The notes under the pieces were generated by a model. The model saw nothing but the letters and a program-made list of their open reading frames with translations, made no database searches and was not told the DNA's origin. The translations under genes were made by a program, and so were the position numbers. Positions 1-52,407 of a DNA stretch of 64,000 nt are shown here, in pieces. This stretch comes from Siniperca chuatsi (taxonomy: Eukaryota; Chordata; Actinopteri; Centrarchiformes; Sinipercidae), in the NCBI RefSeq assembly GCF_020085105.1, contig NC_058044.1, forward strand, positions 29,144,206-29,208,205, read 5' to 3'. Within the stretch, counting starts at the first letter, position 1; every line of letters starts with the position of its first letter.

Positions 1-107
1 ACACACAGAACAAAACCAAACATTTTCTCTGCATTTTAAAAATATTATTTACTACCATTGTATATTTCATGTTCAGTATTCACAAGAAATGCTTTTTACA
101 TCCTCAG

Positions 108-2257
108 TGATAATGCAAACTTCACCAGGACCAATTCCCTGACCAAAAGCATCCCAGTACAATTTGAAATAAAAATGGCATCAACAGTGTAAGTGGCACT
201 ATTGACATAAATGGTATTTTGTAACTGTATTCTTATATGTGCCTAGTCATTTTTATTATTTGAATCATTACATTTTTTTTCATCCAGTCAGTAGTTATCT
301 TATCCCACAGCTACTTTCATATTGTGATCATCCTGTATTATTTTCAGAAATGAAGAAACCATCACCTATCTGAACTTCACAGCAGAGGATGCTGCACCTA
401 AAAAAATGCTTAATACATATAAGGTGAGGCAATATTCACTCTGCTTTGTGCTCTGTTTCGGTCTTCACTAAATCCAGGGTGCGTTATCTGGCTCTTTAGT
501 TGCTAAAAGCTCTACTATGTTTACTAGTTAGTGGTGGTGGGCAGGCAGTGTACAAAAACCAAAGTTTAACATGTTGTGTTTTTAGTTTTAGTATGGACTA
601 AAGAAACATAATGTGCTACCTATTGAGCTTTAGAGGTGCTTGTAGAGTGGATTTTGTTACCTTTGGCCTCAGCCAGGCTAGCCATTTCCCCGTTTAAAGT
701 GTTTATGCTAAGCTAAACTAACTGGCTGCTGGCTGTCAATCTTCTCATTTCCCCAAATGTCGAACTGTTCTTTTAAAGTGGACCAACTGTCTCTCACTAT
801 TCGCAGATAGATAATCCTGGTTTGAAGCCTTTTCCTGTCAACGTGTCCCTGTTCTTCCCAACTAAACTGGAATATAACTTTGAAATGACGAACTATCAGG
901 TCCTTGTCCAGCAGGTAACTTAGAGACTGCCAGAACACTACTACCTATACTTAAACTGCTGTTGTGTATGGAAATAGAAGTCCTTAATGTTTACCAATTA
1001 CTTTTTCATTTTTAAGAACAAAACACAATGCACAGAGGGTCCTGACATGAAATCTGAAGTAAGTGGAACATATTTTGTATCAAAATATTCTAAGTGAACG
1101 TGTCGTGAAATTACAAATCCCTTAATAAAATAAACTGTTGCTGTGTTACAGTACTGCTCAGCAGAAAAATACTGCAAAAGCATAGTGTGTGACAGTTTCA
1201 TCCTGGACAAACAATCAGCAACTGAGTTTGCATTGTTGGGAGAAGTAGAGTTTAGGGATCTCAAACAGTATGCAGCGGTACGTAATAACAACACACACAA
1301 ACAACATACAGACACAGACAGAATACACACCACACATACCATTGAAAGTGGTGAATATATCATTAATTGATATGCTCTTACTTTGCAGAATATTGCCTTT
1401 CTTAAACGATATACTGGAGACAGTGCAGAGGTTAAATTTAAAAGCTTTATACATGTTAGTTATGATAAGCAACAATATGTGCTGGATTCTCATAAACGAG
1501 AGGTATGTTGAAGTTTGATCACAGTAATACCATTTCAAAGATATTGCTGTTAATGCTTTTCAGTATACCTAATTTATCATATTTATTAACCACAGAATAA
1601 AGATGGTGTCAAGCAGGAGAAGTCTGATGAAAGTGGCTTGTGGAAAGACCTTGATCCAACAAATAAATGGGTACATTCAGTCTACACATGAACAGCCAAA
1701 ACTACTTTATCTGCAAGAAATTTTACATCTTCATTCAAATAAGTTTTGAAAACTTGTATTTTCTCTGCCCGCAGATTGAAGTTCGGGTTGAGATCATAAT
1801 CCTTCCAAATCGACAGCTGATCATTTTGACTGGAGTTGTAGTGGGATTATTGCTTCTGCTCATAATCACAGTCATCATGATTAAGGTGAGAGTCAATTTC
1901 CAAATGATAGAGTTTCATTCCAAACCACAATCCTACCACATAAAATACAAGTTAAAGACTATCTTTATATTCAGAGCTGCTGCTTGAATAACGGAATTAA
2001 AAACATTTCAATGATGCTTTTCTACTGTACAATCTCCATGGCCTTGGTCTAATGATTTTTCTTGTGTCTGTCACAAGTTGGGTTGCTTTAAGAGGAAACA
2101 TCCAGAACAGGAGAAAGAACTTGCTCTTCAGGCTGATACCCCTGCTGAGCTCAAGATCACAGCCAGCCAATCAGAGACTGACAACAATGAGGCAAAAAAG
2201 CTTCTTGATGGTGGCAGCAGCACCCCGCCAGCTAAACCACAGGAGGAACTGAATTGA
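108..2257 (+). CDS. Integrin alpha chain, leukocyte (I-domain) type, C-terminal part; 5' end outside window
   Basis: Nine exons with consistent phase: 108-188, 348-423, 807-914, 1017-1058, 1152-1277, 1389-1502, 1596-1670, 1775-1885 and 2078-2257, about 303 residues to a TGA. Integrin alpha chains pair with a beta subunit at the cell surface for adhesion. The visible part is the calf-2 ectodomain, with a Cys cluster (C-X5-C-X4-C at 1155-1190) resembling the alphaX/alphaM pattern. A hydrophobic membrane segment follows (LIILTGVVVGLLLLLIITVI, within 1775-1885), then a cytoplasmic tail of about 60 residues. The membrane-proximal clasp, normally GFFKR, reads GCFKR. The tail is long and acidic/Pro-rich for this class. 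Calling it the leukocyte subclass rests on resemblance and on the linked I-domain gene downstream; the I domain of this gene is not in view. A poly(A) signal may lie at 3070-3075, but a dispersed repeat occupies part of the presumed 3' UTR. Confidence 0.85.
640..775 (-). repeat. Dispersed teleost repeat fragment (minus-strand copy)
   Basis: This intronic stretch is, in reverse complement, similar to parts of 2365-2510 and 7421-7570. It shares the GTTAGCTTAGCTTAGCATAA-like segment and the text around it. It is an interspersed repeat; the family was not identified. Confidence 0.5.
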
Positions 2258-3419: not shown

Positions 3420-5285
3420 GTCAAGATTTTTTTGTCAAATCATAATGGTAAAGTCTTTTTTCAGAGCCTTGATATTGAATTAACTGGTATGTTAAGGTTG
3501 CATTAGGACATTTTTTACGTAAAAATCCACCCATATAGAGGTACTCTAGTGGTGCGGGTGCAAAATTCTCCCCTAACACAGAGACCCACGTGTTACATCC
3601 GGCTTGGTGTGATCCCCTTAACACAACTGGTTGTGTTCGTTGGTGGAAGCCGGTCCTCTTCACTGTACTAGCATCTCCTACTTTTATCCATCAGTATTAT
3701 TGATGTATGTATTATATTCATTGTAATATACTGTAACATTACGACTAGACAGTCTAGTCATAATTTAGTTTAGTCTTATTTCTGATCTTCTGCATGGTAT
3801 TTATTGAGCGAGCAGTTCATGTTCTTCTTGTATTATAGCTGACTGCTTGTTAAAATGTATAACTTTTTTGTTATGGTCATTTGAGCGAATGCAATGGTAC
3901 ATTTGATGAATCGTTTATTGATTAGTGAGCTTGCAAAACATTGTCTTTGTGAGCAGCAGTCCTTGGGTTGGTTGTGAGTAGTTACTAAGGAACGAGTGAG
4001 GAACAAATCAATGGTAGAAAGCATTGAGTCTGTCCTGAGGAGGAGCTGCTTTGGTGGTTTCTTCAAGCCTGAAATGCGGTCACCTTACAATATTTGAGCC
4101 TCACCTGGCACAGTTGACATTTAACTGTCTCCTTTTCCTCCTCTGAATCAAAATAACGGCACGCGAGTTTTTTGTTTAGTCCTCGATGCCACTATTTTTC
4201 TGTTAAGCTTGCTTTTGCCCTTTAAAAATATGACCACAAGGCACATAGGGTTTGTTTTGTCAGTGTTGCTATGGTGGCGCTTGACTAAGACCTTTACGTA
4301 CTTGTAACATGTGTGGATATTAAATGAGTTTCTAAATGACATTCTACGTTTCAGGCCAGAGGTAAAATAACAAGTACACTTTTTTTCCACACATGTACAC
4401 AAGAGGCCTCATTTTAAATGACACTGTCTGTTAAGCTTAACACTCATATATTAACAATAATAAAATAATGCACCTGGGCAAGCTGGAGGAACTTGGAGGC
4501 ATGGTGAATGGGGGCAGAGAGATAAATACCTTTTTAGAAGGCTGTTGATGGCTGGCAATATTAATAATAAAAGTCTTTTACTACGGCATGGCTTAAGAAC
4601 ATACCCATTGTTGATGCATGGATTGACCTGGTACACAGTATTTATGTAATGGAGATGATTACTTGTAACTTTAGATCCCAGTAGGATTCATTTGTTCATA
4701 AGATCATATTTTGTATAAACATGCACAGTATTATAAACATACCTTCCACTGTATTTTTTGGCCTTCCATTGTTTGTGTGTGTATATTTTTTTTTCTTTTG
4801 CTCTTAGGTTTTAAAGGTCTGCTTGTTTGTGCAGTGTTGTGTGTTAATTTTGTTACATGCTCTCTCTCAATAAAAACACTTTGCCGGTCGTTTTGGTGAG
4901 TGCTTGAATTTCCAAGTATCCAAGTATTATCTTGCCACCTTTGTATTTGCAAGAAACGAATTCTGTTTTCACTTAAAACCTGTCCGGAGAGATGGCTTTG
5001 CCCAACAATTGTACACATAGCTGTAGGGTGATGTGTATGTAATACTGCAGTTTGTAATTTCCATGATATTTCCTGGCCGAAAACCAAAAGTTTATGTTAG
5101 AGAAAATCGTTCCATTCATTTAAACTAACAAAACAATATGTATCCCATATCTCCCTTCCTTTTTATACAAAAAGGCACAGTGCAAAAAAAACATTTGTCA
5201 TAAAAACTGCATTAAAATGGCAAATAAATGTAAGGAAGCCTTTAGGTTTTACATAGATTTAAATGTGTTTGTGAGGTTTGCTTTA
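3420..5285. other. Intergenic DNA between the two integrin genes, no gene seen
   Basis: Open frames here are short, lack splice context and do not resemble known proteins. The stretch is AT-rich, with scattered repeat-like text. No promoter or RNA gene could be supported. Confidence 0.5.
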
Positions 5286-7268: not shown

Positions 7269-10200
7269 ATGGAAAAGATGCATGCAAAGAATCACATTGT
7301 CTGGCTCACATACACGATGGCTGTTGGTAAGATCTAAAACAATATGTATCTATAAAAGCAAATAGATAGGGATGCTTTATGTGTCTGGGGAAAGGGTGGT
7401 CTTGAGGCTGAGAGGTTGAAGGAATAATTAAATGGTTTGGGAAATATGCTTATTGACTTTTTATCAGAGAGTGAGATGAGAAGGCCGATACATATCTCAT
7501 GTCTGTGCTTTGAGTACGGAGCTGGAGTCAGGGTGTGTTTAGCCTAACTTAATGTAACGACTGGAAGCAGGAGGAATAAGCAAACCCGTGTCTGTCCAAA
7601 GATCAAACCCGTACACAAACAGAAATGTAGAAACGTCACATTTGTGGCTTCGTGGGGAGTTACATGCTAACATCAAGGTCACAAACAGGATTTTAGGAAC
7701 ACTGAGTCAAAGTCCTATTTTTTATTCATCCTGCTTTTTTTTTTTATGTCAGATGTGTCTTAACTTCTAGTCTATGTAATGTAATGATGAAATCTTTTAT
7801 CCTGAAGATTAATATCCATGTGCCAATCTTTTTCAAGTGTTTGTTATTTTTCCTTTTTTGTCTTTCACTCTGCCATTCTTAACCATTCATTTTACACTTA
7901 TCACTCACCAATTGTCCAAGGTGTAATGAGACAGCAGTTTAATAAGAGCTCTGAGGTCTGGTTGTTTTGTCCAAATGGCCTTGTGTCTTATCACTTCCTA
8001 CTCACAGTATTTGCTTCAAGTCACATATACACACATTTTGCAATAACTACTGGCAAGGATACCTGCTTGAATGAGGGTGAGTAGTTGGGCAGCTTGTGCT
8101 GAGAGATGACTTGGAAGTTTAGCACTGTCCACAACACCATGTGCAGTAGGCGTCAAATACTGACCTTTTGTCACGCCATATACCTTGTGCTACCCTTTAG
8201 TGTCTGTATTAGATGCACAGGGCTGCCAGAAAGCCTTTAGGCTTGTTTGAGATGAACTGCGCCTTGCCTGGAAAGCGGATGAGATCAGGCGGCGGCAGCA
8301 GGGGGCTGTGACAAAAAATGGCAGTCAAGTTGAACAGTTTCCAGCAGCCTTCAAAGAATATACAGGAAGTCCCAGAAATATTAACGTCCTGTTAGATCCA
8401 TCTGTAGGCTACCTGTGGTTTGCTAACCACGTTCGGATTATGGCTGAAGAAATCACGTATATGTGTTCTTGATCGCTGATGAAGTTGAAGCAGAAGAGAT
8501 CCCCGTACTTTTCCATGAAGATGAACAATAGACAATAGTAATTCATATACTTTTCACAGTCGTCTTAGTTTGTCATAACTTTTTATTTGTTTAACGATGC
8601 CACTGTTATAACTGAGGAGAGAATCAGAGAAAGGTTGGTCAGATTTTAGTCCTTGGAAGTCATATTTATTGAATAATTATAGCCTGTAAAGTCATTTAAA
8701 AATCATATGATCCTAAATTTATGAAATTGAACTACTCAAACTTTCTCACAGCTACATACAGTACATAGACTGCACACGGGGAGGAAAAGCAACAATTATG
8801 ACATAAGTTTCCTTTGGTGATGAACATAATTAGATTCAGTTCGCTTCACAATAGTTATAACCTGGAATTCTTGGACTAAACATATTCCACTTCTCTGGCT
8901 GACAAACAGTGTCATCAAGTTGTAATTAGGCTTTCTTATAATCTTTATTTATTGATTTATTTATATTTAAGCATCCCCCCTCATATCGCCTACTGCCTAC
9001 TCACTTGAGAGCCATTTCCTGTATCTGTGTCACTTGGGTTTCACCACTGCCCCGCCCCTTTCGGAGACTAGCAGCAGGTCCTGAGTCTATTCAATTCAAT
9101 GGGAGAAGTGAACACGAGCACAGATTATGACAGATTCATTCACCCCATAGTCACCAAAGTAAATATTGGACCCATTTTTCACAAGCCACATGTCTTCCGA
9201 ATATTAACTAAAATGCTAAACACTAAAATAGCATTTTTCAGACAGACAAATCAGGAGAAAATTTACTTTGATCAAGACCTGTCTTTGTCTCAACCACACA
9301 CTCTCATGAGATCTGACAAAATCTGTTCTCTAAGCGTCGGTCTGGTTTCACTGCAGTGCTGCCGATGTCGCTTTCCAACCGGATAAATAATTAATCTAAA
9401 GGGACTTATACAAACAACCATGAATTAAAAGTTTAAACTGAAATAAAACTTGTGTTTCTTTGCTTAATAATACTATTATATTTATTATTATTTAACTGTG
9501 GAGAGTCCACCACGCCCACTTAGGAGACAGGAAGTGTATACCATTTCATACCATTGGCACTGCCTGTAATGCATTATCTTTGTTATAGAGTTACATTACA
9601 TTGCTATGGTTTCCGGGTTGAATGACATGTTTTCTTCAAACAGTGTGCAACAGGCTTTTAGGCACATTTTCTCTAGTTTAGTGGGTGTGTCAGAGGTGTT
9701 CACAGCAATGTGTATATAAACCCCGCCGTATTATAAAGGCAGTGCGTTTGCAGGGTGTTCAAGGCACCACCATTTCCGTTTAAATTTGCTACATTTTGTC
9801 GGGGCTGAACGCACCCCTGACCACACTTTTAAGTGACACTACATTGTTTCTGAAGGCGTCTTCTAACGCTAAAGGGTACCTTGAGTGTGTTTATACAACA
9901 CCGAGATCCACTGATAAAGAAAACAGAGTTTTGGTTTTCCAGAGCAACAGCCATAGGATTAGGGAAGAGTTTAGTGGCGAATCAACATGTATACAAGAGG
10001 ATCATCAACTATTGTTGTCAGGAGAAGAGTGGCAGTCATGAGATGTGATAAATGGGACATTCTGGTAATGAAGGTGGGCAGGAGTCAGATGAACAGTTAA
10101 AGCAGGTTTAGCGAGTTCAGCTAAATCTCTGATCCAACGGCAGCAGCAGCCAACCAAGAAGCACATCATTTGCTGTTTGGTGTTGGTTTTGGGACATCCA

Positions 10201-16200: not shown

Positions 16201-19200
16201 TAATTTCTTTTCACAAATTGCAGCCATCTCTGTATCTTTCACTTTCAACATTGATACGACAACCCCCCACATCTATACAACAGAACAAAAAGATTTCTTT
16301 GGAAACAAGATGCTTCAAATCATGTTTGGCAAGAACAAAGGGTAAGTACTATGTTTCAGTCGAAAATTTTTGCTGGTAATTGAAAGAGCCACCTATTATT
16401 ACTCATATCGTTAAACACTTGATGTTGATCATTTAGTAGTAGTAGTACAGTAGAAATTACATTTAACACTAAGGCATGAATTTGGAAGAAATGTACATCT
16501 CTGTCCAACTCAGCACATGGTTCCTAATTGTTTTCTCAATGTGGTTCGCTTGCAATATGATCAGAGCTCATAAAGGCAATCTATAAAGTTGCGCCATACT
16601 CTCAAGAAAAAAATCAGCCTAATAAATTCAAAGGCCACTTAACTTCTCCTCTACTTGCTATCTCAAGCAAGCAAGAAGGTAAAGATAATCCCCTTCCTCA
16701 GCAAAGAAAAAGAATAAGCAGAGCCCATGCAGCAGCTTTGTTTCTCTTGACCTGGGACTCACCATGATTGTTGTCCACCAGTCTCAATCGTTGTGGAAGT
16801 GGGTGCACATGCAGAGGCCCAATTTCTACTTCCACAGTTAGCCATAAATGGATGTCGAAATGCCCTTAATCACACGTCTGCATATCAATACAGTGTGAGT
16901 ACAATTTTACCATTTGTGTCACATCAGTGCCAGAGCTACTGTCATTACGTACAGCTGTGGCTTTTCATAGTGCCTGTACCATTCATTCATCACCTGTAAA
17001 CCATCCTTGGTTGTGATATTTACCTCATCATTATTAAATGTCAGAGATGATCAATTATTAATTTATAGCGCTCATATGTGTGCCTCACAATTGAGGATAA
17101 ACTGAAAAGATCATTAACTGCCTCATAAATGGCGTATGCATGTTTTTTGTGCATATGCATTGTTTACACATCTGGACCCTGCTATAAATGAGGTCCAGAA
17201 GATTACTATCATCATGGTTGTTGACCTCATCCACAGGATACTTGTCACAGCATCCCAGCAGCTAAATGGATCTGATGAAATATGCAAATCTGACCATATC
17301 CAAACCCACCAGTGCCTCATTATTCCAGGTACTTAAATATGTTTTGTGAAATAAATATTACACAACAACAATGTAGAAATACTGTATAAAATATAAAATT
17401 AAAACATAGGCTAAATCCAAATATCCACCCTCTGGACTTGCAGACTTTGGTCATACAAACTGTGACATGTCGGACGTGCTCACCATCATCACATCAAGTC
17501 TGCAAAGGCACTATGACTATGACTATGAGGGGATAAAATGCACTATGAGGGGGAATTCAGACCTTAATCACTGCCATAGAACCAGTGCTGGGGGGCTGAT
17601 CCTATAATTAATCTCAGCATGTTTTTCTTGACGGTTCACAACAACAGACTTCACAATGGCAATTCATGTGCAATAACAGTTACTCTACTCAGATACATTT
17701 ATATGGTACAAGTAAATACAAATATGCTATATATCTAAATTGTGTCTAATTTATTGGCAATTTGATACTCATTATTTATATCTCTTATCATTATTAATAT
17801 TAGCCTAGCTGTAGTAAAGGTAGTAGTTGTAGTTTCATTGCAACATCCATCATTTTTGACAATCTGCATTGGCAATCGGGACCTCATAGCCTGTTAAGTC
17901 CACAACTATGCATGTGCAGGGGAAGTCTGGACATTTGGATTCAGCCATGTTTATTACTGTAGCTGAATGATGGTATTTTTTATGAATAGTACTAATCAGA
18001 TGCTATTATCACAGACATTTCTCTCACAAACAAAACAATACCCATCAAGCACATTGGACTGTCGATAGCTGAAGACGCCACACACTCCCAATTCACTGTA
18101 AGAAAATCACAAAGCTCAATAAGTTAGATAAAATGGAAAATACGCTTTTTCTGTGACATTTCTTCAAAGTTCTGAGCAAAAAAATTCAATATGATGAATC
18201 AAATTTCTTTCCCCTCTTATGTTCTGATCTAGGTTTGCAGTCCAAATGTAGTCCATGAATGTTATGAGAACTCCTATCTGAACAACGTGTGTTACGAAAT
18301 CTCCTCTTTCAAACCTGCTTTCCAAGGTAAAAGACATTTAGAGAGTGTAAACGTCTCCTATTCTGTGGTTATAACATCTTGTCCTTTTTGCAGTAAAATG
18401 TTATTCTCAATGTTTTGGTCCAGACTGAATATTCTTTACAAATTTTAACTGTATTGTTTTTCAGAATGCCCAAAAAAGACAGTGGACCTTGTCTTTCTAT
18501 TTGATGGATCAGCGAGTATGACCAAAGCAGAGTTCAACAAAAATAAAGATTTCATAGTGGATATAATGGCCAGCCTTACAAACACATCAATCAAGGTCAC
18601 TGCCACATAATAGCATTCATAGCATACATGAATTTGTTAAATCATATACATAATATATAATCATGACCTTGTCTGTTTTTTTAAGTTTTCAGCAGTTCAG
18701 TTCTCAGAAGATCTAAGTAAAGTTTTTGACTTCAATGACTATCAAGAGGGTAGAGCTCTCAACAATCTTAAGAAAGAACACCATATGAGGAGTCTCACCA
18801 ACACACACAATGCCCTCAGATTTGTGCTGTAAGTTAAATTAAGTGAACAATTCTAAAAATTCTTGAAGAACTGAGTAACACTGAAATAACAGCTGTGTTT
18901 GAGGAGAAAATCCACCCTTGGCCATGTCGTGGTATATTTTTCAGATTTCCACAAAGAAGTGGCCAATAGGAATTGAGGTGTCAAAATAAGATGTTTCCAA
19001 TGTAGTTTAAATAAAGTTTGGCAGCAGGAAATGTTTCAGTTATCAGTTATCATTTTAGTGTCATCCCTCAGAGCAAAGGCTGTAATCAAGACTCAATTTT
19101 CTCGATACTGACCATTATAAATTAAAAAGATTATCAGCATCGTGGAGTAAGAAAGATGACTGAATTACATTTTGATGATTCTAAAAATGGCTTTTACATT

Positions 19201-22200
19201 TGTTTCAGGGAAGAAATCTTAGAAAACCCAGGGGCAGGTGCCTCTCCTGATGCAACTAAAGTTCTGGTACTAATCACAAATGGAGATCCCAGTGATACAG
19301 ACAGAGATGGGATTATTAAAAGATATAATGACAAAAACATCATTTGCTTTGTCATTGGGGTAAGCTGTGATGCAAAGATATATGTATATATATATACTGT
19401 CCCAAGAAGCCTTTTGGAGCCACTGATTTAGGTTAATGAGTATATATCTCTGGTGCAATGATATTCCATTTATGCTTTTACTGTATATACAGCACTGTAG
19501 AAAGACTTGCCCAACTGATCCTAAACCCAACTTTTTCTCCACCCTTTCCACAATCAATTGTAGGAGATAAAATAACCAGTCTGGAAACACTGAAAATAAC
19601 AGTGTCACATCTTCATTTGAATTCTGAAGGGGAAATAAAGCAGCCCTCAATCTAGCTAACAGAAAATAAATTCTGTGTTGAGAAAAAACTAGATTTGGCT
19701 TATGTACAAATAAATCCTGCTATAGGGAAATAAATTCTGAGATGACTGTAAAAGATAAACCAATATGTAACTACACAGTTGCACATTTCTTTTTCAAGTT
19801 GTTTATGCAATTAATAATAACTTTCTGAAAAAAAAAACATTGAATGATTTAGTTAATTCTTTCAGTTTATAAAAATTTAAGTTTAGGATTCTCTGGCTCT
19901 GTTGAATTGCATTGGTGGAGTCAGAATTTCAAGCAGCATTCTGGTTTCAGGTCAGAGATGCTGAGCTGGATAGAGTGAAGGCCATTGCTTCAGAACCTAC
20001 AGACAAATATGTCTTCAAAATTGAGAACTATGACGGACTCACAGGAATACTGGAAAACTTTCAGAAACAGATGTGTAACATGGAAGGTGATGTTTACTTT
20101 ACTTTTTTCCATCTCTGTGCAATAATGTTGCTACAAAAATCCATTTTATCTTCCTGATGTCCTCCTGCAATATAAACATGAACTACTTTTGTCTCATATT
20201 TAGGCTCCAAAGTGGCTCGGTCCAGAGAAATGCCTCAGGGTGGATTCAGTGCTGTCTTGAGTAAGGTGAGTAAAGTCATTGTTATCAGCTGATGACATTC
20301 TTAACACAATTGAAAAGTAAATTTTTTACCCATAATAACACAGTATAGTCAATCATCAAAGTGTCCAGAGTGGAGGTAAACATTAGTATCCTTAGATAGA
20401 AAAGCGAATTGATCATGTTCATAAAAAGATTCAGGACATGCTCATTGAACATAAAATATGATTTAATCAGGCCACGCCATGCACCACACCTTGCTGGACC
20501 ATTATGCCATGGCTTGAATTAAAAACTTATATTAAAACTTCTCATCACCTCTGCAATATCTTTCAGTCTTCATTCTGTGTATAATACTTTGTGCCTTGAC
20601 AAACCGCTCATCTGAAACAAATAAATGATGCAGGTATACCTGGAAAAACTGAAAAAGTTTGATCAGTTTGTTGTGTCCCCTTTTCCAATGTTTGTACTTT
20701 GCAAGGACGACTCATCATAAAGTGTTTAGCCTGGAGGGGATCATGCGTGTGGTCGTGTGTGTGTGCGTGAGCGTGTTCAGCTAATCTCGCATACTACTGA
20801 ATAGCCTAATATTTTTTTGTGCACATTTAGGACTATAAGCTCATTGCTAAAGGACCTCTCGTGGTTTTGGTGATTCACATATTTTTCCTTGCTTTGCTTC
20901 ACCTGTTGCCATGTCGGTATTTTTTTCTTCTTCATGTAATGCGCTATAAATTAAAAAAAGCACTTAAAAGTCTCAGTAATGTAGCTCAACAGCAAGGATT
21001 TAAACAAAACAGTTTATTGACTGCTCTGTTTTATCCCGCCAGTGACTGCTGACTCCTCACGCCTCTTAGATGGCTGGTAGGGGCCGCAAGTGATCAACAA
21101 CTGCTTCAGTTTAGAATCTTGTTCCACTAGGGACAACGTACAGGGTGTTCATAAATGATCTCGAGACTATCTCGCCACTCCTTTACGTATTTCAATTAAA
21201 TTAAATTCCATATTTTTTTATATAGCTCCAATTCATAACAGAAGTTATCTCATTGTACTTTTCCTATAGAGCAGGTCTAGACCGTAACCCACCATGAGCA
21301 AGCAAGCGACAGTGGCAAGGAAAAACTTCCTTTTAACAGGCAGAAACCTCGGGCAGAACCAGACTCAATGGTGGGTGGCCATCTGCCACTGCCGTGTAAA
21401 GTTTAGAGAGAGAGAGAGAGAGAGAGAGAGAAGGGGAAAGGAAAGCACAATGCAAATACCACCTGGTATTTTAAAATAGTAATAATGTAATGGTAGTGGT
21501 AATATTAATATCAATAAGTTAATAATAATAGGAATGACAGTCATAGGAATAATAATGCTAATAATAGTAACAGAGCCAATAACAACAACTGTAGCAGTTG
21601 TCGAGCAGGGACACAGGGGCAACAGGTGGCCCACAACCACAGATCCAGTCTCTGCAGCTCCTGAGGTAGAAATACCTGCTGAAAGCAACAGAAGGAGAGA
21701 GGAGAGAAACGAGAAAGCACAAAACTACGGGAGAGAGAAGCAAAACATTTCTAGGTATGTTTCTGGACTACAGGAGGGCGACCATTGTAATGACTCCGGA
21801 GGGGCATCAGGCCTTCTAAACCTGCCTCGGGCACTTCCAGATTCCTTCTCGGGTTGACTGGGGACTCTGTCTTTATCTCATGGGCCTAATGGCAGCCATG
21901 GTGCAAGAAGTCCCTCTTGCCCTCCTGTACATGCAACCTGTCCAAAGGTGCCTGCTGAGCTTGGTGGAGGGACTCAGCCAACATAGAAAATGGGAGTACT
22001 CTAGGACCGGTGGTCTTTCACCAGCTGGTCTGCTCAGACACATCCTTTGTAGGCTGGGGTGCTGTCCACGAAGGCTGTGGGGTCAACGGACAATGGGCCA
22101 GTCATTGGGTGGCCCAGCACATAAAGGTCCTGGAGCTGAGAGCTCTTCTCCTCACACTCCAGCACAAGGAAGAGGAGACAGGGGGGGCCTAGGCTCCCCC

Positions 22201-25200
22201 ATCTTATGCAAGCTGGCAACTGAACCATGGCAGCGGGCTCACCCCCTTTTCTGCTCAGCTGTAGGATTATAGTGGAAGGGGTGAGGCGGATTTTGGTGGC
22301 TCCTCTTTTGCCACATGCCATGGTTTTCCACCTTTCCTGGACGGAACGTCATGGGAGCTCCCACTTCAGAGAGACCTGCTGTCTCAGGCGAGTGGGACCC
22401 TGTTCAACACCTTTCTGGTGGGGTTCAGATTGGTGGCCTGACCCCTGAGAGGGACAGACTTCTCTAGGCTTGCCAGAGCCTGTATTGAGGCACGGGGTGT
22501 CTTAAAGAGTTACCCTGTACATGTGAAATATGTAATGGAGTGGAGAGATAGTCTCGAGACAATAGTATGGTTACATTGTAACCTTGGTTTACTGAGTGAA
22601 GAGTCTTATCTCTCCAGCTTTTAGGCCACTCTGAGACACGTGTCAATCAAACTATCAGTGATTCCATGCCAGAACAGGTGCCGTGGACAGGCAAGTCGGT
22701 GTGTCTTAAAGGGACAGGTTACCCCAAAATCTTACCTGTAGTGCTATTTATCCATCTAGATTGTTTTGGTGTGAGTTGCTAAGTTTTGGAGATATCAACT
22801 ATAGAGATGTTTGCATTTTTTGAATGTAAAGGGACTATATGCCACTTGGCTCGTGGTGCTCAAAGCACCAAAAAAATACATTTGAAAAACTCAATAGCAA
22901 TGTCTCTTTCCAGAAATCCTCTTTTCCAGATTTGTTGTGAGTAGTTTCATGCAGGGACTCTTTTCTTTCTACTGTGTTTTGTGCTAATTAGCAAATGCTA
23001 CTAACATGCTTAGGTTAACTGGCCTCTATTATGTTCTGATCTAGGTTTGCAGTCCAAGTGTAGTCCATGAATGTTACGAGAACTCCTATCTGAACAGCGT
23101 GTGTTACAAGATCTCAGATCATCCTCAAGAAATCTCCTCTTTCAAACCTGCTTTCCAAGGTAAAAGACATTTAGAGCATGTAAACGTCTACCATTCTGTG
23201 GTTATAACATCTTGTCCTTTCTGCAATAAAATATTATTCTCAATGTTTTAGTCCAGACTGAATATTCTTTACAAATTTTAACTCTTTTAATACTTTTTTC
23301 AGACTGCACAAAAAAGACAGTGGACCTTGTCTTTCTATTTGATGGATCAGTGAGTATGACCGAAGCAGAGTTCAACAAAAATAAAGATTTCATAGTGGAT
23401 ATAATGAAAAGCCTTAACGACACGTCAATCAAGGTAACTGCACTACTGCAACGTAAAGCATTCATAAGACTTATTTGTTAAATTATATATACATAATGTA
23501 TATATACACATATTCATTATGTTACGTATTCATTATGTACATAATGAATACTGTATTATGTTGTCTGCTTTTTTCAGTTTGCAGCAGTTCAGTTCTCCTT
23601 AGACTGCAGGAAAGTTTTTGACTTCAGTGACTATCAAGCTGGTAGAGCGCTCAATAAACTTAAGAAAGAAGTCCATATGAGGAGTCTCACCAACACACAC
23701 AGAGCCCTCAAATTTGTGTTGTAAGTTCAGTTACATTACACAAACAGTTCTCAAACTCTTGAACAACTGAATAACATTAAAATAACAGCTGTTGTTGAGG
23801 AAAAACACTCAAGAACTGGCACAGTACAACTGTAAGATTATAAGCATCTTAAAGCATCTCTAAAACATGTTAATTTATTATTATATTATTATTTATAGAT
23901 GAAGTTTTGTATATTCTGAACATTAAAAATGATACTTTTACATCTGTTTCAGGGAAGAAATCTTAGAAAACTCAGGTGCAGGTGCCTCTCCTGATGCAAC
24001 TAAAGTTCTGGTACTAATCACAGATGGAGATCCCAGTGATGCAGACAGAGATGATATTATTAAAAGATATAATGACAAAAACATCATTCGCTTTGTCATT
24101 GGGGTAAGCTGTGATGTGATATGACATGTCTCATTATTCTTATTCTTATAGTCTTATTTGTCCAATAGATAAATCTCTGTTGATTAATTTATTTATTCAG
24201 TTAAAACAATCACATGTGGTATACCTCAGGGATCAGTTCTCAGAACTGATCTGTTCACTTCGGATGATACACAGTCATACTTATGGAAGCGTATTCGGGA
24301 CTATATTCAAATGATAATGTAAACGTCAATGATGAAATGAAAATGTCATTCCACAATAGCATTATAATTTTCCACATGTGTATGTGTTATTTGAGTAAAA
24401 ATGAAAATGCAGAAATCCAATTTTCACATACTTGTATGTATGTATCATAGAGCTCCCATAGAAGTATGTGAAACTGAAAATGATCATTGGATTATTGCAT
24501 TTTCATTAAAAATTTTTCTCAAATAACACATACACGTGTGGAAAATTATAATGCTATTGTGGAATTATTTTACATTTTCATCAAACAAGTTTGCATTATC
24601 ATTTGAATATAGTCCCGTTTACGCTTCCATACATACTTCTCAGAAAAAAATAATAGTTCAGACGTACATTTAGCAACATGGGAACATTTTAAGTTTGTCT
24701 ATAAGGGTGATCTCAACCTTAAATTGTGAAACTTTTATTGACTCTAGTTTTGAGTCCGTTATTGTGCAAAATTGTGTTGTTTATCTTGCTGACATCAGAC
24801 TTGGAGGTATTTCATAATTTCAAGCAGCATTCTGGTTTCAGGTCAGAGATGCTACATTGGATAAATTTACAGCCATTGCTTCAGATCCAACAGACAAATA
24901 TGCCTTCAAAATTGAGAACTATGACGGACTCACAGGAATACTGGAAAACTTTCAAATAAAGATCTTTAACATGGAAGGTGATGTTCAATTGTTTTTCCCT
25001 CTTCGTGCAATAATGTTACAAAAATCCATTTTATCGTCCTGGTGTGCCCCTGCAATTGTAACATGAAACGCTGTCTTTATATTTAGGTACCAAAGTGGCT
25101 CGGGCAGAAGAAATGACTAATGAAATGTCTCAGAGTGGATTCAGTGCTGTCTTCTACAAGGTGAGTAAAGTCAAAAAGAACAAATCTGGACACATTCAAA

Positions 25201-28200
25201 ATCTACATCTTTTACCCATAACTATAGTCAATCATCACAGTGCTTGCTAACCATTCGTACAGGTGCAGGTAAACAGTACCCTTAGACAGAAAAGTATTTG
25301 ATCATGTTCATAAAAAGTATGCATGCAGTTAACAACAGTTTCATAAAATATTAATTAAGTCAGGTTATGTGGTAGACGACACCCTTGTTGGACTTGTCAT
25401 ACTTATCTGCCATGGCATGATTGAAGAACTTACCTCAGCAATATCTTCAGGTCTTAAATGGGTTAAAAACTTTGCGCCCTGACAAACTGCTCAACTGAAA
25501 CAATCTGTTCACACTGGAGAATTATCTCACTTCTCTGATACACTTGCTGTTCCTCAAGCATTTGTTTTTTTAATAACCCATTTTTTAAACAGCCAGACCC
25601 ACAAACTGGGTAAAGAGTGATGGGGCTGCCACACAGTCAGGCGCCCCAAGCAGTTAAGGGTTCTGTGCCTTGCTCAAGGGCACCTCAGCAGCACCCAGGG
25701 TGGTGAACTGGCACCTTTCCAGCTACCAGTCCACCCTCCGTACTTACTGGTCCATGCTGGACTTGATCCAGCCACCCTCTGGTTCCCAAGCGAAGTCCCC
25801 ATGGACTGAGAAGGTATAGAATGGCCTGAGAGTGGCGCAAGTTACCTAAATCAAAAGGACTGTTTGCTAATTTATCATAGTAATTTAACTGCGATACTGA
25901 AACAAACAAAAGAATCCCATGCAGCCCAAAAAGCATTTTCCCAGAAGACCGCCATTATAAACCCATTTACATGTTAACAGTTAAAATGTACAGTTAGCAT
26001 GTACACATATATCAGAGGAAAGGAAAATTCAACATCTCTTCTTGTCTGGACTATTTCTCCTAGACATAACTGAGCTCAATTTAACATCAATATGAGATTT
26101 TCACCATTGTCTCATACTTCTTAAATTCACCTCCTGAGAAATAGCCTTCCTCTTCTCTCAGTCCAATCCTAATTTAAGATATTAAAATGCACTTTTTTTC
26201 TCTCTCACTGCACTGATCTTGTCTGAAATAATCAGCTCTTGAGATAACAGTAAGATCCAAAAGAAAACTCAACTGGCTTATAAATGAGCCTGCACAATAT
26301 CAGAAATTTGTCTAAATGATCAAATTCAAGTCTCAACTCAACTACAAGCACAGCAAAAGATATCCTGCTTTTCTTGTGTTTCTGTTTTCTCAAATAACAG
26401 GATAGGATCATTTGTCTTGGATTGATTTATTCTTTTGCTCCTTATTTCTCCAAAAGGGTTTTAGGAGAAACAGGTCAGAATTCAGTAAGCTCTAAATAAG
26501 ACTGTTGTGAGCAGAAAAAATTTCCTTTGGGATATGCGCAGTCTGCTCAAAGACTAAACTGCAGATTATATGATTTTTTGTTGTTATTATAGGACTATTT
26601 ATTTGTCTAACATACATGTTATATGTAAACTATTTTATGTTTCGAGTGTTACACATTGCTCTTGTTCATAAAAAGAGATGTGTAACTAAAACATGTCTTA
26701 TTTCACTTTGTTGACAGTGAACTTTACTATAAATGGACACCTCAACACCTCAATGCATCATCAGGGTTCCCACGCATCCTGGAAAACCTGGAAATTGATT
26801 AAAATGACCAGTATATATACTGGAAATAATCTGTTATCCAGGAAATTTTTAATTGTATATTATCCCGTCACTCAGATCGCCTCTGTAGCCTATAGCATAT
26901 TTTATTTGAAACTGGACTCTTGGTAAAATAAGCTGTAATATGAAGTATGACACTTCAAAGTGACTTTACTAGACGCCAAGCAGAAACTTTGTGAAACTAT
27001 GTGAAACTTTGCCATGGCAATAGAAAATGTAGTAGAAAATATATGATAGTATAATGGTTAATTTAGATGATATATTTCTAATTACAGAAGTAAGTGAGGC
27101 AGGGCAGAATGTCAAGGAGGTGTATGTTTAAAGATAAATAGAAGGACAATCCTGAGTTCAGGGACTGGATAGGACATTTGGCAGGTCATGTACACCGGGC
27201 ATACTGCAAGACATGCAAGAAAACATTTGATGTAGGCAACATGGGCATGTCTGCTGTTAAAAGTTCACAAGGTCACGTCAAGTCAAGTCAGTGGGCCACG
27301 AATGACTGATTTCATCAATCAACCTCCCACCCCAAATTCTGAAGCTGGCAGGCAGGCAACAGTGGCAGAGACAGAGTCAAGGGAGCAGAGAGGTTCAACC
27401 GTCAACTTCTGAGAGTGTGACTCCACCCCATGTTGCACCCAACTTGGAACTAATTTCTTAAGTGAAGCTGTTTTAGTTACAGAGATCTGCTTGGTGCTAA
27501 AAATGACCCTTTCCCATTTTTAGCCCAGATTTGGCTACATTGTTTCCTGACAGTGAGATTGCCAAAAAAATTCATGTGTCCAACAAAAGCAGCGTATCTG
27601 ACTGAACCTAGTGAAAGACATCAGACAGTCACACTGCTACATCATCTCATTTGATGAATGTCTCAATAAAGTTACTCAGACCAGGCAGATTGATGTAGTT
27701 GTTCGTTACTGGAGTGAGAGAGAAAAGAAGGTGGTCGTGGATTACCTGGACTCCCAGTTTATGGGACACACCCAAGCACAGAAGCTTGTTGAGAGAATGA
27801 AGAATTCTCTACCTCTACTTGATCCAAACAAGCTCCTACATACAGTATATCCATGGATGGCCCAAGTGTAAACTGGACGTTTTTGAGATTATTTGAGGAG
27901 GACAGGAGCAAGGAGGACCAAAATGCATACCATTTCTTAAAGCCTTTCAAACCGATGCCCCTATGGTGCCTTTTTTGGCAAAAGAGCTTTAAGCCATTCT
28001 GAGGAGCTTGCTTTCATGCTTCATGACTCTAAAAGAGTTTGACATGGGCTTTGCCACCAAACAAGCTCTGGACAAAGGCTCTGGGAAAAGGTCTGCTGCA
28101 TGAAGCTTACCAGTCAAATTTTAACTCTTGAGTTGTGCTGTTTTTTGTTGTTGTTGTGTCAGTGGTTATTTATTTGACAAAAGTAAATTTAACTAAAATT

Positions 28201-37200: not shown

Positions 37201-37893
37201 CCCACACAATTGAAATTCTCCTAAAATATACACGTATAGCAAATAGTTTAAAAGGTGTGCTTCACTTCAAAATGAGAGCATGCATAAACTCAAATTTGAA
37301 TTTGGATCTCTTCTAAGTCGTCAAGTTAATATTTGGGTCAAAAATAATAAACTGCTGATGATTTCCATTCAAACTTAAATGCTTGTTAAAAAAGTATGGA
37401 CATCTGCTGGAACTGATGTGTATTTCCTTTTCTGTCACATTATTAGAAATTTAAAACTACATTGTTACCTACAAATCAGCAAAATACTGATAGTATTAAT
37501 AATCCTAACAAGTTTATTCATTTTGCAGTAATTTTGCCTAATGTTTCTTCAAGAATATGCAGATGATTCTTTTTTTCTTGCAGAAATGTGTGGATGACAC
37601 ATCATCACCGATCAGCATCAGACTAAACTTCTTCCAAGTTGACAGTGAGAGAGCGAGTGCCGTCCTGAACGTGGACAGCAAAAGGCAGGCTGTTGCTGAG
37701 GTGTGTACAGTGCCTACAGCAGAAGGCAGTCTATGTCTGTATTCAGTATTTGTATCTTCAAAATCAGTGTGCCATTTACCAACAACAATCACTTTCTTTG
37801 TTCAGTCTGCATGGTCAACTATTTGACTTGCTCTGTTTTCAAGTGACCTGAATAGAACCTATAACTGTTTTACAGGTTCCCTTTCAGAACTGA
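7269..37893 (+). CDS. Integrin alpha-like chain with two tandem I (VWA) domains, truncated before the calf domains
   Basis: Proposed exons: 7269-7326, 16224-16341, 17237-17328, 18015-18097, 18233-18326, 18465-18595, 18686-18828, 19209-19359, 19951-20086, 20204-20265, 23045-23159, 23303-23433, 23578-23720, 23953-24103, 24842-24977, 25087-25160, 29008-29122, 30322-30464, 34594-34740, 34868-35065, 35546-35676, 35907-36061, 36855-37021, 37584-37700 and 37876-37893. All phases match, giving about 1,002 residues. Order: tentative signal peptide; propeller blades 1-2 ([24 protein letters not shown]); I domain 1 (DGSAS); I domain 2 (DGSVS); blades 3-7 with Ca-binding loops ([27 protein letters not shown]); thigh start. 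The reading then runs VPFQN and stop. Family members bind ligands through the metal site (MIDAS) of the I domain and pair with a beta chain. No membrane segment follows. Exon 1 is the weakest call. The product could be soluble, or the gene a recent pseudogene. A poly(A) signal is at 38436-38441. Confidence 0.75.
7421..7790 (+). repeat. Dispersed teleost repeat, second plus-strand copy
   Basis: The sequence aligns by eye with 2365-2650: 'gagagtgagatgagaaggcc', 'ggagctggagtcagg', then a run of T. It lies in intron 1 of the double-I-domain integrin. Confidence 0.5.
7800..10230. other. Intron 1 sequence, no gene recognised
   Basis: Long intronic sequence with short unconvincing frames. Segments near 8,230-8,330 and 9,050-9,150 read like interspersed fish repeats, but I could not name them. 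No structured RNA was recognised. Confidence 0.4.
10395..10486. repeat. Short tandem repeat, 19-bp unit
   Basis: The unit ACCCTGTCAAGGGGGCAAA occurs twice in full (10441-10459 and 10460-10478) with partial copies on both sides. Copies are contiguous without spacers, so this is a minisatellite and not a CRISPR array. Confidence 0.7.
11165..12307 (-). mobile_element. L1-like LINE, 3' part (reverse transcriptase C-terminal region), decayed
   Basis: Read on the minus strand, frames resemble the C-terminal region of fish L1/Tx1-type ORF2. Examples are [32 protein letters not shown], and a terminal Cys motif near 11,250-11,290 ([19 protein letters not shown], from memory of the family). Several stops interrupt it. 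It continues at 12,690-12,795 and 15,546-16,170, so a MITE and an L2 element are inserted into it. Confidence 0.7.
12307..12690. mobile_element. Non-autonomous DNA transposon (MITE) inserted in the L1 element
   Basis: The terminal inverted repeats are clear: TTAAAGGTCCAGTATGTAGG at the left and the reverse complement of the same at the right, ending in ACATACTGGACCTTTAA near 12,688. The element is about 380 bp with no open frame. Flanking L1 coding sequence resumes on either side (SNFGLL on one side, [15 protein letters not shown] on the other), which shows the insertion boundary. The superfamily was not assigned. Confidence 0.75.
12690..12795 (-). mobile_element. L1-like LINE, middle fragment
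   Basis: The minus-strand reading gives [12 protein letters not shown] and [11 protein letters not shown], the segment just after the YADD-containing palm in L1-type reverse transcriptases. It joins the flanking pieces at 11,165-12,307 and 15,546-16,170 into one element. Confidence 0.65.
12811..12889. repeat. Near-perfect palindrome at the L1/L2 junction
   Basis: The left arm GGTTGATTATATTTAAATGG, continuing to CCTGAACA, is mirrored by TGTTCAGG and CCATTTAAATATAATCAACC. The loop is about 7 bp and the arms about 36 bp. The right arm is the start of the readable L2 sequence, so the left arm looks like an inverted duplicate of the 5' end of that element. Confidence 0.75.
12845..15545 (+). mobile_element. 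L2/Maui-like LINE, 5'-truncated and internally deleted
   Basis: The apurinic endonuclease-like part is at 12,847-13,260 ([28 protein letters not shown]). A reverse-transcriptase piece is at 14,065-14,330 ([33 protein letters not shown]). A C-terminal remnant follows ([17 protein letters not shown]). The 3' UTR has a CT-rich tract and ends with GGCGCTATATAAATAAAATT plus (GAATT)n, the hallmark tail of fish L2/Maui elements. Stops at about 13,171 and 14,041 and a deletion around 14,335 mean it is inactive. It is inserted into the L1 element. Confidence 0.8.
15546..16170 (-). mobile_element. L1-like LINE, reverse-transcriptase fragment
   Basis: The minus-strand frame 15,705-16,170 encodes [14 protein letters not shown], then QTGCIQGHN and [19 protein letters not shown] (the palm Asp motif of L1-type reverse transcriptase). 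Further on come a degraded GCPRSPLLF motif and [10 protein letters not shown] in place of YADD. It stops abruptly about 50 bp upstream of integrin exon 2 (16,224), so the insertion nearly abuts the splice acceptor. Confidence 0.75.
18210..20620 (+). repeat. Tandem duplication, unit 1 (I domain 1 exon block)
   Basis: Exons and introns are similar to 23,020-25,510. The match starts at 'tatgttctgatctag' before exon 18233. It continues about 350 bp past the last I-domain exon (20,265), with 'agtcaatcatca', 'ttgatcatgttcataaaaag' and 'ccatggc' shared. Six exons are duplicated: 18233-18326 through 20204-20265. The unit encodes one I domain with its short upstream Cys-containing linker ([15 protein letters not shown]). 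Confidence 0.85.
20266..21185. other. Intron between I domain blocks, with a GT-rich tract
   Basis: The first 350 bp are the 3' flank of duplication unit 1. A GT-rich low-complexity stretch is at about 20,745-20,775. Nothing coding was recognised. Confidence 0.5.
21190..21745 (-). mobile_element. L2/Maui-like LINE 3' end (minus orientation)
   Basis: The reverse complement matches the 3' UTR of the L2 copy at 14,700-15,540. It has the ATATAGCTCCAATTCATAAC tail, the GCAAGGAAAAACTTCC and CAGAACCAGACTCAATGG blocks, a GA/CT tract (21,401-21,432) and the short protein-like stretch [17 protein letters not shown]. Only the last 550 bp is present. Confidence 0.75.
21745..22665 (+). mobile_element. 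DIRS-like retrotransposon fragment (RNase H region)
   Basis: A frame at 22,010-22,190 reads [20 protein letters not shown] then [14 protein letters not shown]. This fits the RNase H domain of DIRS1-type elements (TDAS..GWGAV...HIN.LEL.A...AL). The 3' portion has the 'gagacaatagtatggttaca' type terminal text. Frameshifts break it up. It separates the two I-domain exon blocks. Confidence 0.6.
24205..24275 (+). mobile_element. Short LINE reverse-transcriptase remnant
   Basis: The translation contains [20 protein letters not shown]-like text, matching the G-V-P-Q-G-S-V-L motif of L2/CR1-type reverse transcriptases. It is only about 70 bp and lies directly against the hairpin element. Confidence 0.45.
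24277..24636. repeat. Long foldback MITE (about 360 bp hairpin)
   Basis: The left half (GGAAGCGTATTCGGGACTAT, ...CACAATAGCATTATAATTTT, ...CACATACTT) is almost the exact reverse complement of the right half. The centre is near 24,445-24,455 and the arms about 165-175 bp. It carries no open frame. It sits in the intron between 24103 and 24842, within I domain 2, and has no counterpart in I-domain unit 1. Confidence 0.8.
25580..25815. repeat. Dispersed fish repeat (SINE-like text)
   Basis: It contains 'ctgtgccttgctcaagggca', 'cctcagcag' and 'ccaccctctggttccc', a block I recognise as recurring in many teleost introns. It has no open frame of interest. The family was not assigned. Confidence 0.5.
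27110..28135 (+). pseudogene. hAT-like transposase-derived gene fragment (BED-like finger plus catalytic-domain remnant)
   Basis: A zinc-finger-like segment at 27,150-27,260 ([11 protein letters not shown], then [10 protein letters not shown]) is followed by a frame at 27,611-27,871 reading [20 protein letters not shown] and [20 protein letters not shown]. That frame resembles the hAT-derived protein family of fish in which SFDESLN..TQ..Q.D is conserved. The downstream text ([16 protein letters not shown]) is in a shifted frame. Stops and shifts are numerous, so this is a dead copy in an integrin intron. Confidence 0.6.
28480..28525 (-). mobile_element. Short DIRS-related fragment
   Basis: The reverse complement of this stretch (AGGTCGTCTGGCCTCCTCTT) closely matches 31,975-32,010 inside the DIRS-like element. 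Confidence 0.5.
29236..29640 (+). mobile_element. Penelope-like element fragment with a fish 3'-end repeat upstream
   Basis: 29,236-29,300 is the AAGTCAATTTTATTTATATA-type repeat seen at many fish loci. The frame then reads [38 protein letters not shown] and [20 protein letters not shown]. This is the GIY-YIG endonuclease C-terminus of a Penelope-like protein; the first half is missing. Downstream, 29,790-29,835 carries the GCCGAAACGTCTTGATTC-type tail. Confidence 0.7.
30640..32395 (+). mobile_element. DIRS-like retrotransposon, 5' region and ORF1 (gag-like)
   Basis: The frame 31,503-32,003 (166 residues) starts [18 protein letters not shown] and includes [13 protein letters not shown], a Cys-containing N-terminus typical of DIRS1 ORF1. 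A basic SRHSRS...PPRKKAKK stretch follows. The gag-like reading continues in shifted frames to about 32,390 ([31 protein letters not shown]). 30,640-31,500 should be its left terminal and leader region, though I could not define the repeat ends. Reverse transcriptase and tyrosine recombinase are absent. Confidence 0.6.
32360..33620 (-). mobile_element. Rex/L2-like LINE fragment (endonuclease and part of RT)
   Basis: The minus-strand frames give the endonuclease domain ([71 protein letters not shown]). Then come a linker ([39 protein letters not shown]) and, at 32,360-32,590, a piece of reverse transcriptase ([13 protein letters not shown] region, in broken frames). It is the same broad family as the plus-strand element at 39,840-42,045. 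It is inactive. Confidence 0.7.
33945..34500 (-). mobile_element. L1-like LINE fragment
   Basis: In reverse complement, 34,260-34,420 shows a decayed CPLSPLLF-like motif (CPPYYFF) followed by text matching the segment before YADD in L1-type reverse transcriptase. 33,945-34,145 keeps a 66-residue frame of similar origin. Short and broken. Confidence 0.45.
36421..36790. repeat. Dispersed C/G-rich repeat, probable relative of copies at 7.1 and 54.4 kb
   Basis: It has 'ttggggggttctaagataag' at one end and CCCCTCCCCACCCCAATCAT followed by TTTTCATAAAGTCCC at the other. The right end matches the right end of the 7,095-7,250 and 54,370-54,510 repeats. Confidence 0.45.
37059..37101. repeat. Tetranucleotide microsatellite
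   Basis: Tandem CTGT then CTAT/CCAT units, starting 38 bp after the splice donor of exon 36855-37021. Confidence 0.9.
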
Positions 37894-51150: not shown

Positions 51151-51159
51151 CAATCGTAA

Positions 51160-52200: not shown

Positions 52201-52407
52201 AATGAGCAAGAATGATAAAAGCTCAGACATGTCAAAAAGACGAGATAGAAGCTGGACTTTGTTCCTCCACATATGAGGCCGTCCCTGTGTCTGGCTCAAA
52301 GTTCAGGTCACACAGACAGTTTCAGTATTGCCTCTGTGAGCGTGTTTGTGTTTCCCCTGAGTCTCTGAACTCTAACTCTGTTCATACTGAGCTGTCTGAG
52401 CTACAGG

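Follow-up and report, generated by a model that had tools for sequence, protein, structure and literature searches.

Known I-domain integrin alpha chains carry one I domain together with calf-1, calf-2, a membrane segment and a cytoplasmic tail, and they signal via their legs and tails. The single I domain is inserted between propeller blades 2 and 3. Shed or recombinant integrin heads derive from such complete chains by cleavage or design and also hold one I domain. Here we describe an integrin alpha gene of the teleost fish Siniperca chuatsi (GCF_020085105.1, contig NC_058044.1, positions 29,144,206 to 29,208,205; the whole 64,000-nucleotide stretch is referred to as the window and positions are counted from its first letter) that carries two I-domain blocks, A and B, in tandem. 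Like the shed and recombinant heads, its predicted product is a ligand-binding head with no membrane anchor, although in this case the gene itself stops at the thigh.

The Siniperca gene has in common with alphaL, alphaM, alphaX and alphaD the propeller, the insertion site of the I domain and the thigh, but it differs from them in having two I blocks and in lacking calf-1, calf-2, the membrane segment and the tail. Its closest counterpart lies beside it, as the complete gene of protein P0008 (annotated alpha-D, 1188 aa) is situated upstream on the same strand. P0008 is 86% identical over the propeller-thigh body and its I block is 94% identical to block B, whereas it is a complete single-I chain with legs, a membrane segment and a GCFKR tail motif. 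Among solved structures, the best integrin match of block B was alphaL, with collagen VI alpha 3, which has many VWA domains, higher in summed score. Tail-less tandem-I proteins, mostly auto-named integrin alpha-L-like, are predicted in 19 other teleosts (P0003, P0005, P0006, P0049 and P0104 among them). They likewise have two or more full I domains with no calf or membrane segment found, and differ in that the number of full I domains ranges from 2 to 4 and the MIDAS (metal ion-dependent adhesion site) and internal-ligand residues vary. For the Trachinotus relative P0005, the best integrin matches among solved structures were alphaM, alphaL and alphaX.

The first-pass annotation of this DNA, which had predicted an integrin alpha gene with two I domains, knew of no other such integrin. 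In the open-access literature, where most subscription journals are not covered, no description of a two-I-domain integrin was found (passages including PMC4237329, PMC12422189, PMC3726769, PMC5811549, PMC10659397, PMC7073085 and PMC6362898), and in the published passages that use it the wording "two I domains" concerns separate domains in collagen or ion binding. The layout is nevertheless not unique to this fish, with tandem-I predictions in 20 species. No NCBIfam model matched.

The gene was assembled as 25 exons joined in one open frame on the forward strand at 7269-37893 (3009 nt, 1002 aa), and 24/24 introns are GT-AG. Outside the I blocks, the exon model was built by tblastn using the fish homologues P0001, P0003 and P0008 as bait. 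The NCBI Siniperca chuatsi protein P0001 is 100% identical to the model over the query region (residues 230-880), contains both I blocks, and has a C-terminus identical to the end of the model. The frame opens with E1 (7269..7326), which holds a start codon and a signal-like peptide (MEKMHAKNHIVWLTYTMAV), has a GT donor and is in a phase that fits E2. The propeller begins with E2 (16224..16341; FNIDTTTPHIYTTEQKDFFGNKMLQIMFGKNKG), which was placed by tblastn with P0003 and P0008 and by its splice sites, and continues through E3 (17237..17328; 100% identical to P0001) to E4 (18015..18097; tblastn and splice sites), which ends in phase 0 upstream of the first I block. Block A comprises a pre-I-domain exon, A1 (18233..18326); four I-domain exons, namely A2 (18465..18595) with the MIDAS motif DGSAS, A3 (18686..18828) with the acceptor AAG rather than CAG, A4 (19209..19359) with Asn in place of the MIDAS Asp (ITNG), and A5 (19951..20086), which ends the domain and has the internal-ligand Glu (NMEG); and a post-I exon, A6 (20204..20265), which is 12 nt shorter than its counterpart B6 and ends in phase 0. 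Block B has the same order, with pre-I-domain exon B1 (23045..23159), I-domain exons B2 (23303..23433; MIDAS motif DGSVS), B3 (23578..23720), B4 (23953..24103; MIDAS Asp unchanged, ITDG) and B5 (24842..24977; the domain end, internal-ligand Glu present, NMEG), and post-I exon B6 (25087..25160), again ending in phase 0. Downstream of the I blocks, tblastn placed the propeller exons C1 (29008..29122), C2 (30322..30464; FTGAPRFEHVGQ), C3 (34594..34740; calcium-loop-like DVNSDGNTD), C4 (34868..35065; calcium-loop-like DLNGDGLRD) and C5 (35546..35676), and the thigh exons C6 (35907..36061; Pfam model PF08441 matches over the thigh), C7 (36855..37021) and C8 (37584..37700). The last coding exon, T (37876..37893), reads VPFQN followed by TGA.

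As expected of a seven-bladed FG-GAP propeller, Pfam found FG-GAP matches in the product, and by exon order E2 to C5 are collinear with the complete chain P0008. Both I blocks sit between E4 and C1, which is the site of the single I block in P0008. The two blocks are read as one gene: between them, tblastn queries from fish homologues detected no set of N-terminal exons, and two separate genes, each with its own such set, were rejected on this ground. A gene lacking its 5' end was likewise considered, as human chains used as tblastn queries showed nothing clear upstream of block A, and was set aside when the fish homologues revealed E1-E4.

Self-BLAST aligned the blocks in three collinear direct pieces spanning 18211-20620 and 23023-25503 (E values 0.0, 1.6e-80 and 9.9e-115), and ten collinear direct-repeat families run between them at spacings of 4744-4896. 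Exon lengths are 94/131/143/151/136/62 in A and 115/131/143/151/136/74 in B. All 12 exons are flanked by AG and GT, and each block starts and ends in phase 0. Pfam accordingly reported two VWA domains on the product rather than exactly one I domain. The first-pass annotation had the 12 exon coordinates exact to the base (A 18233-20265, B 23045-25160), and its observations that four of the six exon lengths are identical (131, 143, 151, 136) and that a single frame can pass through A and B, with phase 0 at both ends of each block, into the remaining propeller were borne out. The shared intron text it described was recovered for introns 1 and 5, with A/B identities of 0.92 and 0.82, and only partly for introns 2-4 (0.57, 0.62 and 0.49). 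Exon DNA identity between A and B is 0.97, 0.92, 0.85, 0.95, 0.88 and 0.81 for exons 1-6, and protein identity is 79% (198/250 columns). Blocks that differ this much (3-19% in exons, 8 to ~50% in introns) cannot be explained by a haplotype split or a doubled read stack. An inverted repeat with 128-nt arms that are 84% complementary also lies at 24282-24631, in the B4-B5 intron; none is listed in the matching intron of block A, and it is perhaps a small insertion.

The product is predicted to be an alpha head (propeller and thigh) and not a complete integrin alpha chain, because Pfam and tblastn identify a thigh but no calf or membrane exons; in this respect the earlier prediction of an integrin alpha chain in the usual sense did not survive. 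The thigh model PF08441 was matched over positions 1-155 of 157, reaching residue 1001 of 1002. Pfam found no calf model in the product, while the same scan found the thigh, calf-1 and a third Ig model in P0008, and hydropathy revealed no membrane segment in P0001. Downstream of 37.7 kb, tblastn with P0008 gave no convincing match to calf, membrane or tail exons in the 64-kb window. A gene running on into such exons was rejected on these grounds, and an opposite-strand zinc-finger-like open reading frame (ORF) lies at 42.7-44.6 kb. The last exon corresponds to the beginning of P0008's first calf exon and opens in a similar way (VPFEKK... in P0008), after which the frame is lost and TGA follows the five codons. 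Past the stop, a recognisable ELEMDF occurs in another frame (AELEVDF in P0008). In a sequence alignment with solved alphaX, the Trachinotus relative P0005 (1004 aa) is matched as far as its own residue 1002.

Three homologue searches, each scoring about 8000 candidates (7996, 7991 and 7986), were carried out. They found 768, 668 and 565 proteins, respectively, and the best 120 of each were listed, giving 245 different proteins enriched for close relatives. A full I domain was taken as about 130 residues or more, and calf was scored by itself. At least 24 of the 245 listed homologues have two or more full I domains, and 23 of these 24 lack both calf and membrane segment. The remaining one, P0122, consists of two whole genes fused in annotation and was excluded from the tandem class. 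Calf was matched in 198/245 listed proteins, just one of which (again P0122) has two I domains. Single-I proteins numbered 219: 196 with calf (170 with a membrane segment and 26 with none found), 18 with neither, and five with a membrane segment and no calf. Two of the 245 had I fragments only. Among the matches listed, the 23 tandem-I tail-less proteins come from 20 teleost species, Siniperca included, so that a layout with two or more full I domains, of the kind that the first-pass annotation had proposed to look for in related fish, is predicted in 19 others. The 23 include the isoform-model pairs P0002/P0009 (Mugil) and P0005/P0010 (Trachinotus) and two Labeo records (P0049 and P0121), with copies counted singly. 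FG-GAP is listed in 22/23 (absent from P0228) and the thigh model in 13/23. Lineages were looked up for 12 of the species and comprise Percomorphaceae (9), Gadiformes, Cypriniformes and Characiformes.

Comparison of listing data suggests, as no proof, that the tail-less and the complete protein are perhaps neighbours, as in Siniperca, in 8/20 species (Siniperca, Mugil, Trachinotus, Dicentrarchus, Channa, Colossoma, Pelmatolapia and Metynnis). The data for the two proteins differ in five (Larimichthys, Centropristis, Cirrhinus, Labeo and Oreochromis), where the assemblies perhaps differ, and seven have no pair. Eighteen of 38 tail-less models end in V/I-P-F plus 2-5 residues at the thigh/calf boundary. 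Twenty tandem models have printed ends, of which nine end in V/I-P-F plus 2-4 residues, three from cichlids end in EIPI at about the same place, and the other eight end elsewhere, some before the thigh (P0002, P0009 and P0043). The Siniperca-type end point thus appears common but not general, and repeated truncation is therefore possible. Gene models also hint that block number may vary by splicing: Trachinotus P0072 (compared with P0005) and Dicentrarchus P0022 (compared with P0003) are shorter models whose only I domain is a hybrid, and Mugil has a three-I model annotated beside a four-I model. Several cyprinid models (P0129, P0130, P0137, P0155 and P0123) look legless in a different manner, with propeller and thigh followed by a membrane segment and a GFFKR-type tail and no calf. 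The P0123 model, from Labeo, has three thigh domains in a row, and the last ~60 residues of Labeo P0049 are not integrin-like and, by eye, have a transposase-derived look.

The 55 tandem I-domain copies in the 23 proteins were scored for the five MIDAS residues and the internal-ligand Glu. Among the 52 copies in which all five MIDAS positions align, 46 keep every residue; three more copies are gapped. Of the six that deviate, three are Mugil copies with T to I, which come from two isoform models of a single gene, and the others are Siniperca A (D to N), Centropristis copy 1 (T to S) and Betta copy 1, where two D are changed to E. In Siniperca, block B is intact and block A has N for the second Asp. 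The first-pass annotation had envisaged a bivalent or a mutually exclusive ligand-binding head; a symmetric bivalent one is doubtful because block A has lost this aspartate. The internal-ligand Glu is described in passages of PMC12422189 and PMC7073085 as the residue by which the I domain engages the beta subunit. It is E in 28/46 tandem copies with a letter at that position (9 gapped), in 185/194 single-I calf-bearing proteins (2 gapped), in 17/22 single-I calf-less proteins (1 gapped), and in 14/14 complete proteins examined, which represent 13 of the tandem-I species. In 9/20 tandem-I species, one or more of the tandem copies lack it. The pattern of Glu loss is only suggestive, because copies from one species or lineage do not count as independent (the K found in carp represents one lineage).

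The first-pass annotation regarded the second block as an in-frame duplication of the first. Plain duplication of A into B is too simple, because B is closer to the I block of the neighbour (94%) than to A (79%), which contradicts a fresh copy. In the I-domain tree (64 domains from 39 proteins), B groups with P0008 (96 by the Shimodaira-Hasegawa-like approximate likelihood ratio test, SH-aLRT) and A lies outside, while I domains elsewhere cluster for the most part with others of the same species or of close relatives. In the body tree (68 proteins; 69 were chosen and P0160 had no alignable body), the Siniperca tail-less gene is sister to its neighbour (SH-aLRT 95), and the tail label needs 14 changes, with those of the calf-less cyprinids P0123, P0129, P0130, P0137 and P0155 that were included being counted as tailed. 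Both trees are quick searches with SH-aLRT support only. Both trees would be expected either from partial duplications that recurred or from a single old tail-less copy that gene conversion has homogenised. The patchy identity between A and B (intron 1 92%, introns 2-4 49-62%, intron 5 82%) fits conversion or unequal insertion.

The architecture of the gene, comprising its exons, open frame, truncation point, MIDAS states and recurrence in teleost predictions, is well supported. As to what it means, we tentatively favor, at somewhat less than even confidence, a head-only partial copy of the adjacent CD11/alphaL-type integrin alpha gene whose likeliest product would be a soluble, secreted tandem-I head that binds ligand and does not signal. 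Transcription, secretion, ligand binding and a decoy role are inferred. According to this proposal, the two tandem I blocks would occupy the single propeller loop that normally holds one I domain. Because each block brings a pre-I and a post-I exon with it, an additional hairpin may lie between the two I domains. The secreted head would bind integrin ligands through block B, and through block A perhaps weakly or differently. It would be unable to signal, because it has no legs, membrane segment or tail, and, for the ligands of the membrane integrin encoded next to it, may be a decoy or a bridging molecule. Block number would shift between species (2 to 4), and the likeness of blocks within a species could result from repeated block duplication or gene conversion.

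Several observations weigh against this proposal. The MIDAS Asp is lost from block A, and N at that position is unique among the 55 tandem copies (one other copy has E). The internal-ligand Glu is present in both Siniperca blocks and speaks against a loss of coupling to beta in this species. An alpha head by itself may be unable to leave the cell unless it is paired with a beta subunit. E1, on which the signal-like peptide depends, is the least secure exon: it lies 8.9 kb from E2 and is weakly supported, as its tblastn matches to the N-termini of P0003 (63% over 19 columns, E 1.5) and P0008 (E 2.9) are each weak alone, and the NCBI model P0001 lacks it and begins at 16848 instead. The stop codon arises in a frame-shifted calf exon, as a decaying copy would also show. 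For other species, the lack of calf and membrane segment is read from gene models, and some of these are clearly incomplete. Between A and B, the nonsynonymous and synonymous divergences (dN and dS) are 0.098 and 0.137, and the dN/dS ratio of 0.71 indicates weak constraint at best, or recent conversion, on the I blocks. Finally, in 16 hand-chosen tail-less/complete pairs (15 within one species and one of Labeo with Cirrhinus), the propeller-thigh body of the tail-less copy lies further from Salmo in 13, the largest difference being 6.5 points, and closer in three, by no more than 1.3; it is further from Megalops in 14, equal in one and closer in one. Because the tail-less copy is the more diverged in most pairs, tail-less bodies generally seem to evolve somewhat faster, under somewhat relaxed constraint, yet unlike unconstrained sequence. 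In favour of the proposal stand the single frame of 25 exons with GT-AG introns throughout, the Pfam and tblastn results at its 3' end, the lack of calf and membrane segment in 23/24 listed proteins with two or more full I domains, and the MIDAS residues kept in 46/52 tandem copies. On the same side, in Siniperca itself the body of the tail-less gene is 62.1% identical to Salmo and 56.2% to Megalops, compared with 62.4% and 55.8% for the neighbour; being as far from Salmo as the neighbour and no further from Megalops, it is therefore not evolving like free-running sequence.

Many of these same data bear on the strongest rival, namely that the gene is a partial tandem duplicate of the 5' two thirds of its neighbour on the way to becoming a pseudogene, with its frame kept open by gene conversion and no function of its own. 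We consider this a serious but rather doubtful explanation. The frame-shifted calf exon at the end, the 94% identity of block B to the neighbour, the D to N change and the A/B ratio of 0.71 all speak for it, as do the AAG acceptor at A3, the grouping of the body with its same-species neighbour, the greater distance from Salmo in 13/16 pairs, and the several different ways in which tail-less models end. Against decay, the first 24 exons hold no stop, frameshift or broken splice site, and the Siniperca body diverges no faster than that of the intact neighbour. Elsewhere, tandem-I tail-less models recur across Cypriniformes, Characiformes, Gadiformes and Percomorphaceae, 18/38 tail-less models end near one point, and the MIDAS residues of tandem copies are mostly kept.

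An unlikely alternative is that the head forms a pair with beta2 within the cell and, with beta2 as its only anchor, appears at the surface as a short-legged or dominant-negative CD18 complex instead of a free soluble protein. The propeller is where integrin alpha chains meet beta, and by exon order it is complete here; both Siniperca blocks have the internal-ligand Glu; and solved alphaM entries of about 763 residues, which we take to be headpiece constructs, resemble a propeller-plus-thigh head. Conversely, the Glu is missing from at least one tandem copy in 9/20 tandem-I species, and with two I domains stacked, relay to the beta I domain may be impeded.

That A and B are mutually exclusive cassettes, with no transcript containing both, is more improbable still. 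Skipping either block would keep the frame, because both are in phase 0 at both ends, and P0072 and P0022 are shorter by roughly one block, the missing part starting where the first I domain ends and running to where the second one ends. Those shorter models, however, fuse the first domain to the end of the second rather than skipping a whole block, and P0001 and the models in 19 other species, all predictions, hold two or more I domains together. An assembly artefact (an uncollapsed haplotype or a misjoin), which the first-pass annotation had raised against its own proposal, is scarcely credible: beyond the general possibility, its only encouragement is the repeat sequence flanking and separating the blocks, whereas the divergence of the blocks and the tandem I domains predicted in 19 other species speak against it.

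Extending the proposal of a secreted head beyond Siniperca, we suggest, a shade more cautiously, that teleosts may have a class of integrin alpha heads not described before, soluble and polyvalent, with 2 to 4 full I domains in tandem, encoded beside a membrane CD11-type gene, diversified by repeated duplication of the I block, homogenised by conversion, and serving as secreted decoys or opsonin-like bridges in innate immunity. If true, a recurrent head-only tandem-I form would mean that evolution has separated ligand binding from signalling within the integrin family. Such proteins would provide natural tests of I-domain function without relay to beta, and possibly a new class of soluble immune molecules in farmed fish. 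Among the matches listed, tandem I domains are confined to proteins without legs and membrane segment (23/24, the other being the fusion); if this held in complete surveys, it would suggest that a second I domain is not tolerated in an integrin that signals.

Within the window, the last exons of the upstream neighbour P0008 (calf-2, membrane segment and tail) were located by tblastn at 52..2254 on the forward strand. Mobile-element-like sequence, recognized from inverted repeats and ORFs, lies between the I blocks at 21191..22500. Its 21191-21740 portion is an inverted copy of 14777-15543, such that copies flank block A on both sides and may have taken part in rearrangement. The stretch at ~21.8-22.5 kb may resemble a DIRS1-like retrotransposon. 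By eye, ORFs resembling fragments of long interspersed nuclear element (LINE) reverse transcriptase/endonuclease are present at 12844-14576, 39209-41679 and 49476-51166. The opposite-strand frame mentioned above (42702-44612, minus strand, 636 aa), with exon-like pieces reaching ~46 kb, has by eye the look of a CCCH zinc-finger protein, and exon-like pieces on the forward strand at ~52369-54786 resemble, also by eye, a group XII phospholipase A2 gene. A 539-aa frame on the minus strand at 59166-60785 is rich in Ser, Arg and Glu and contains a long serine run.

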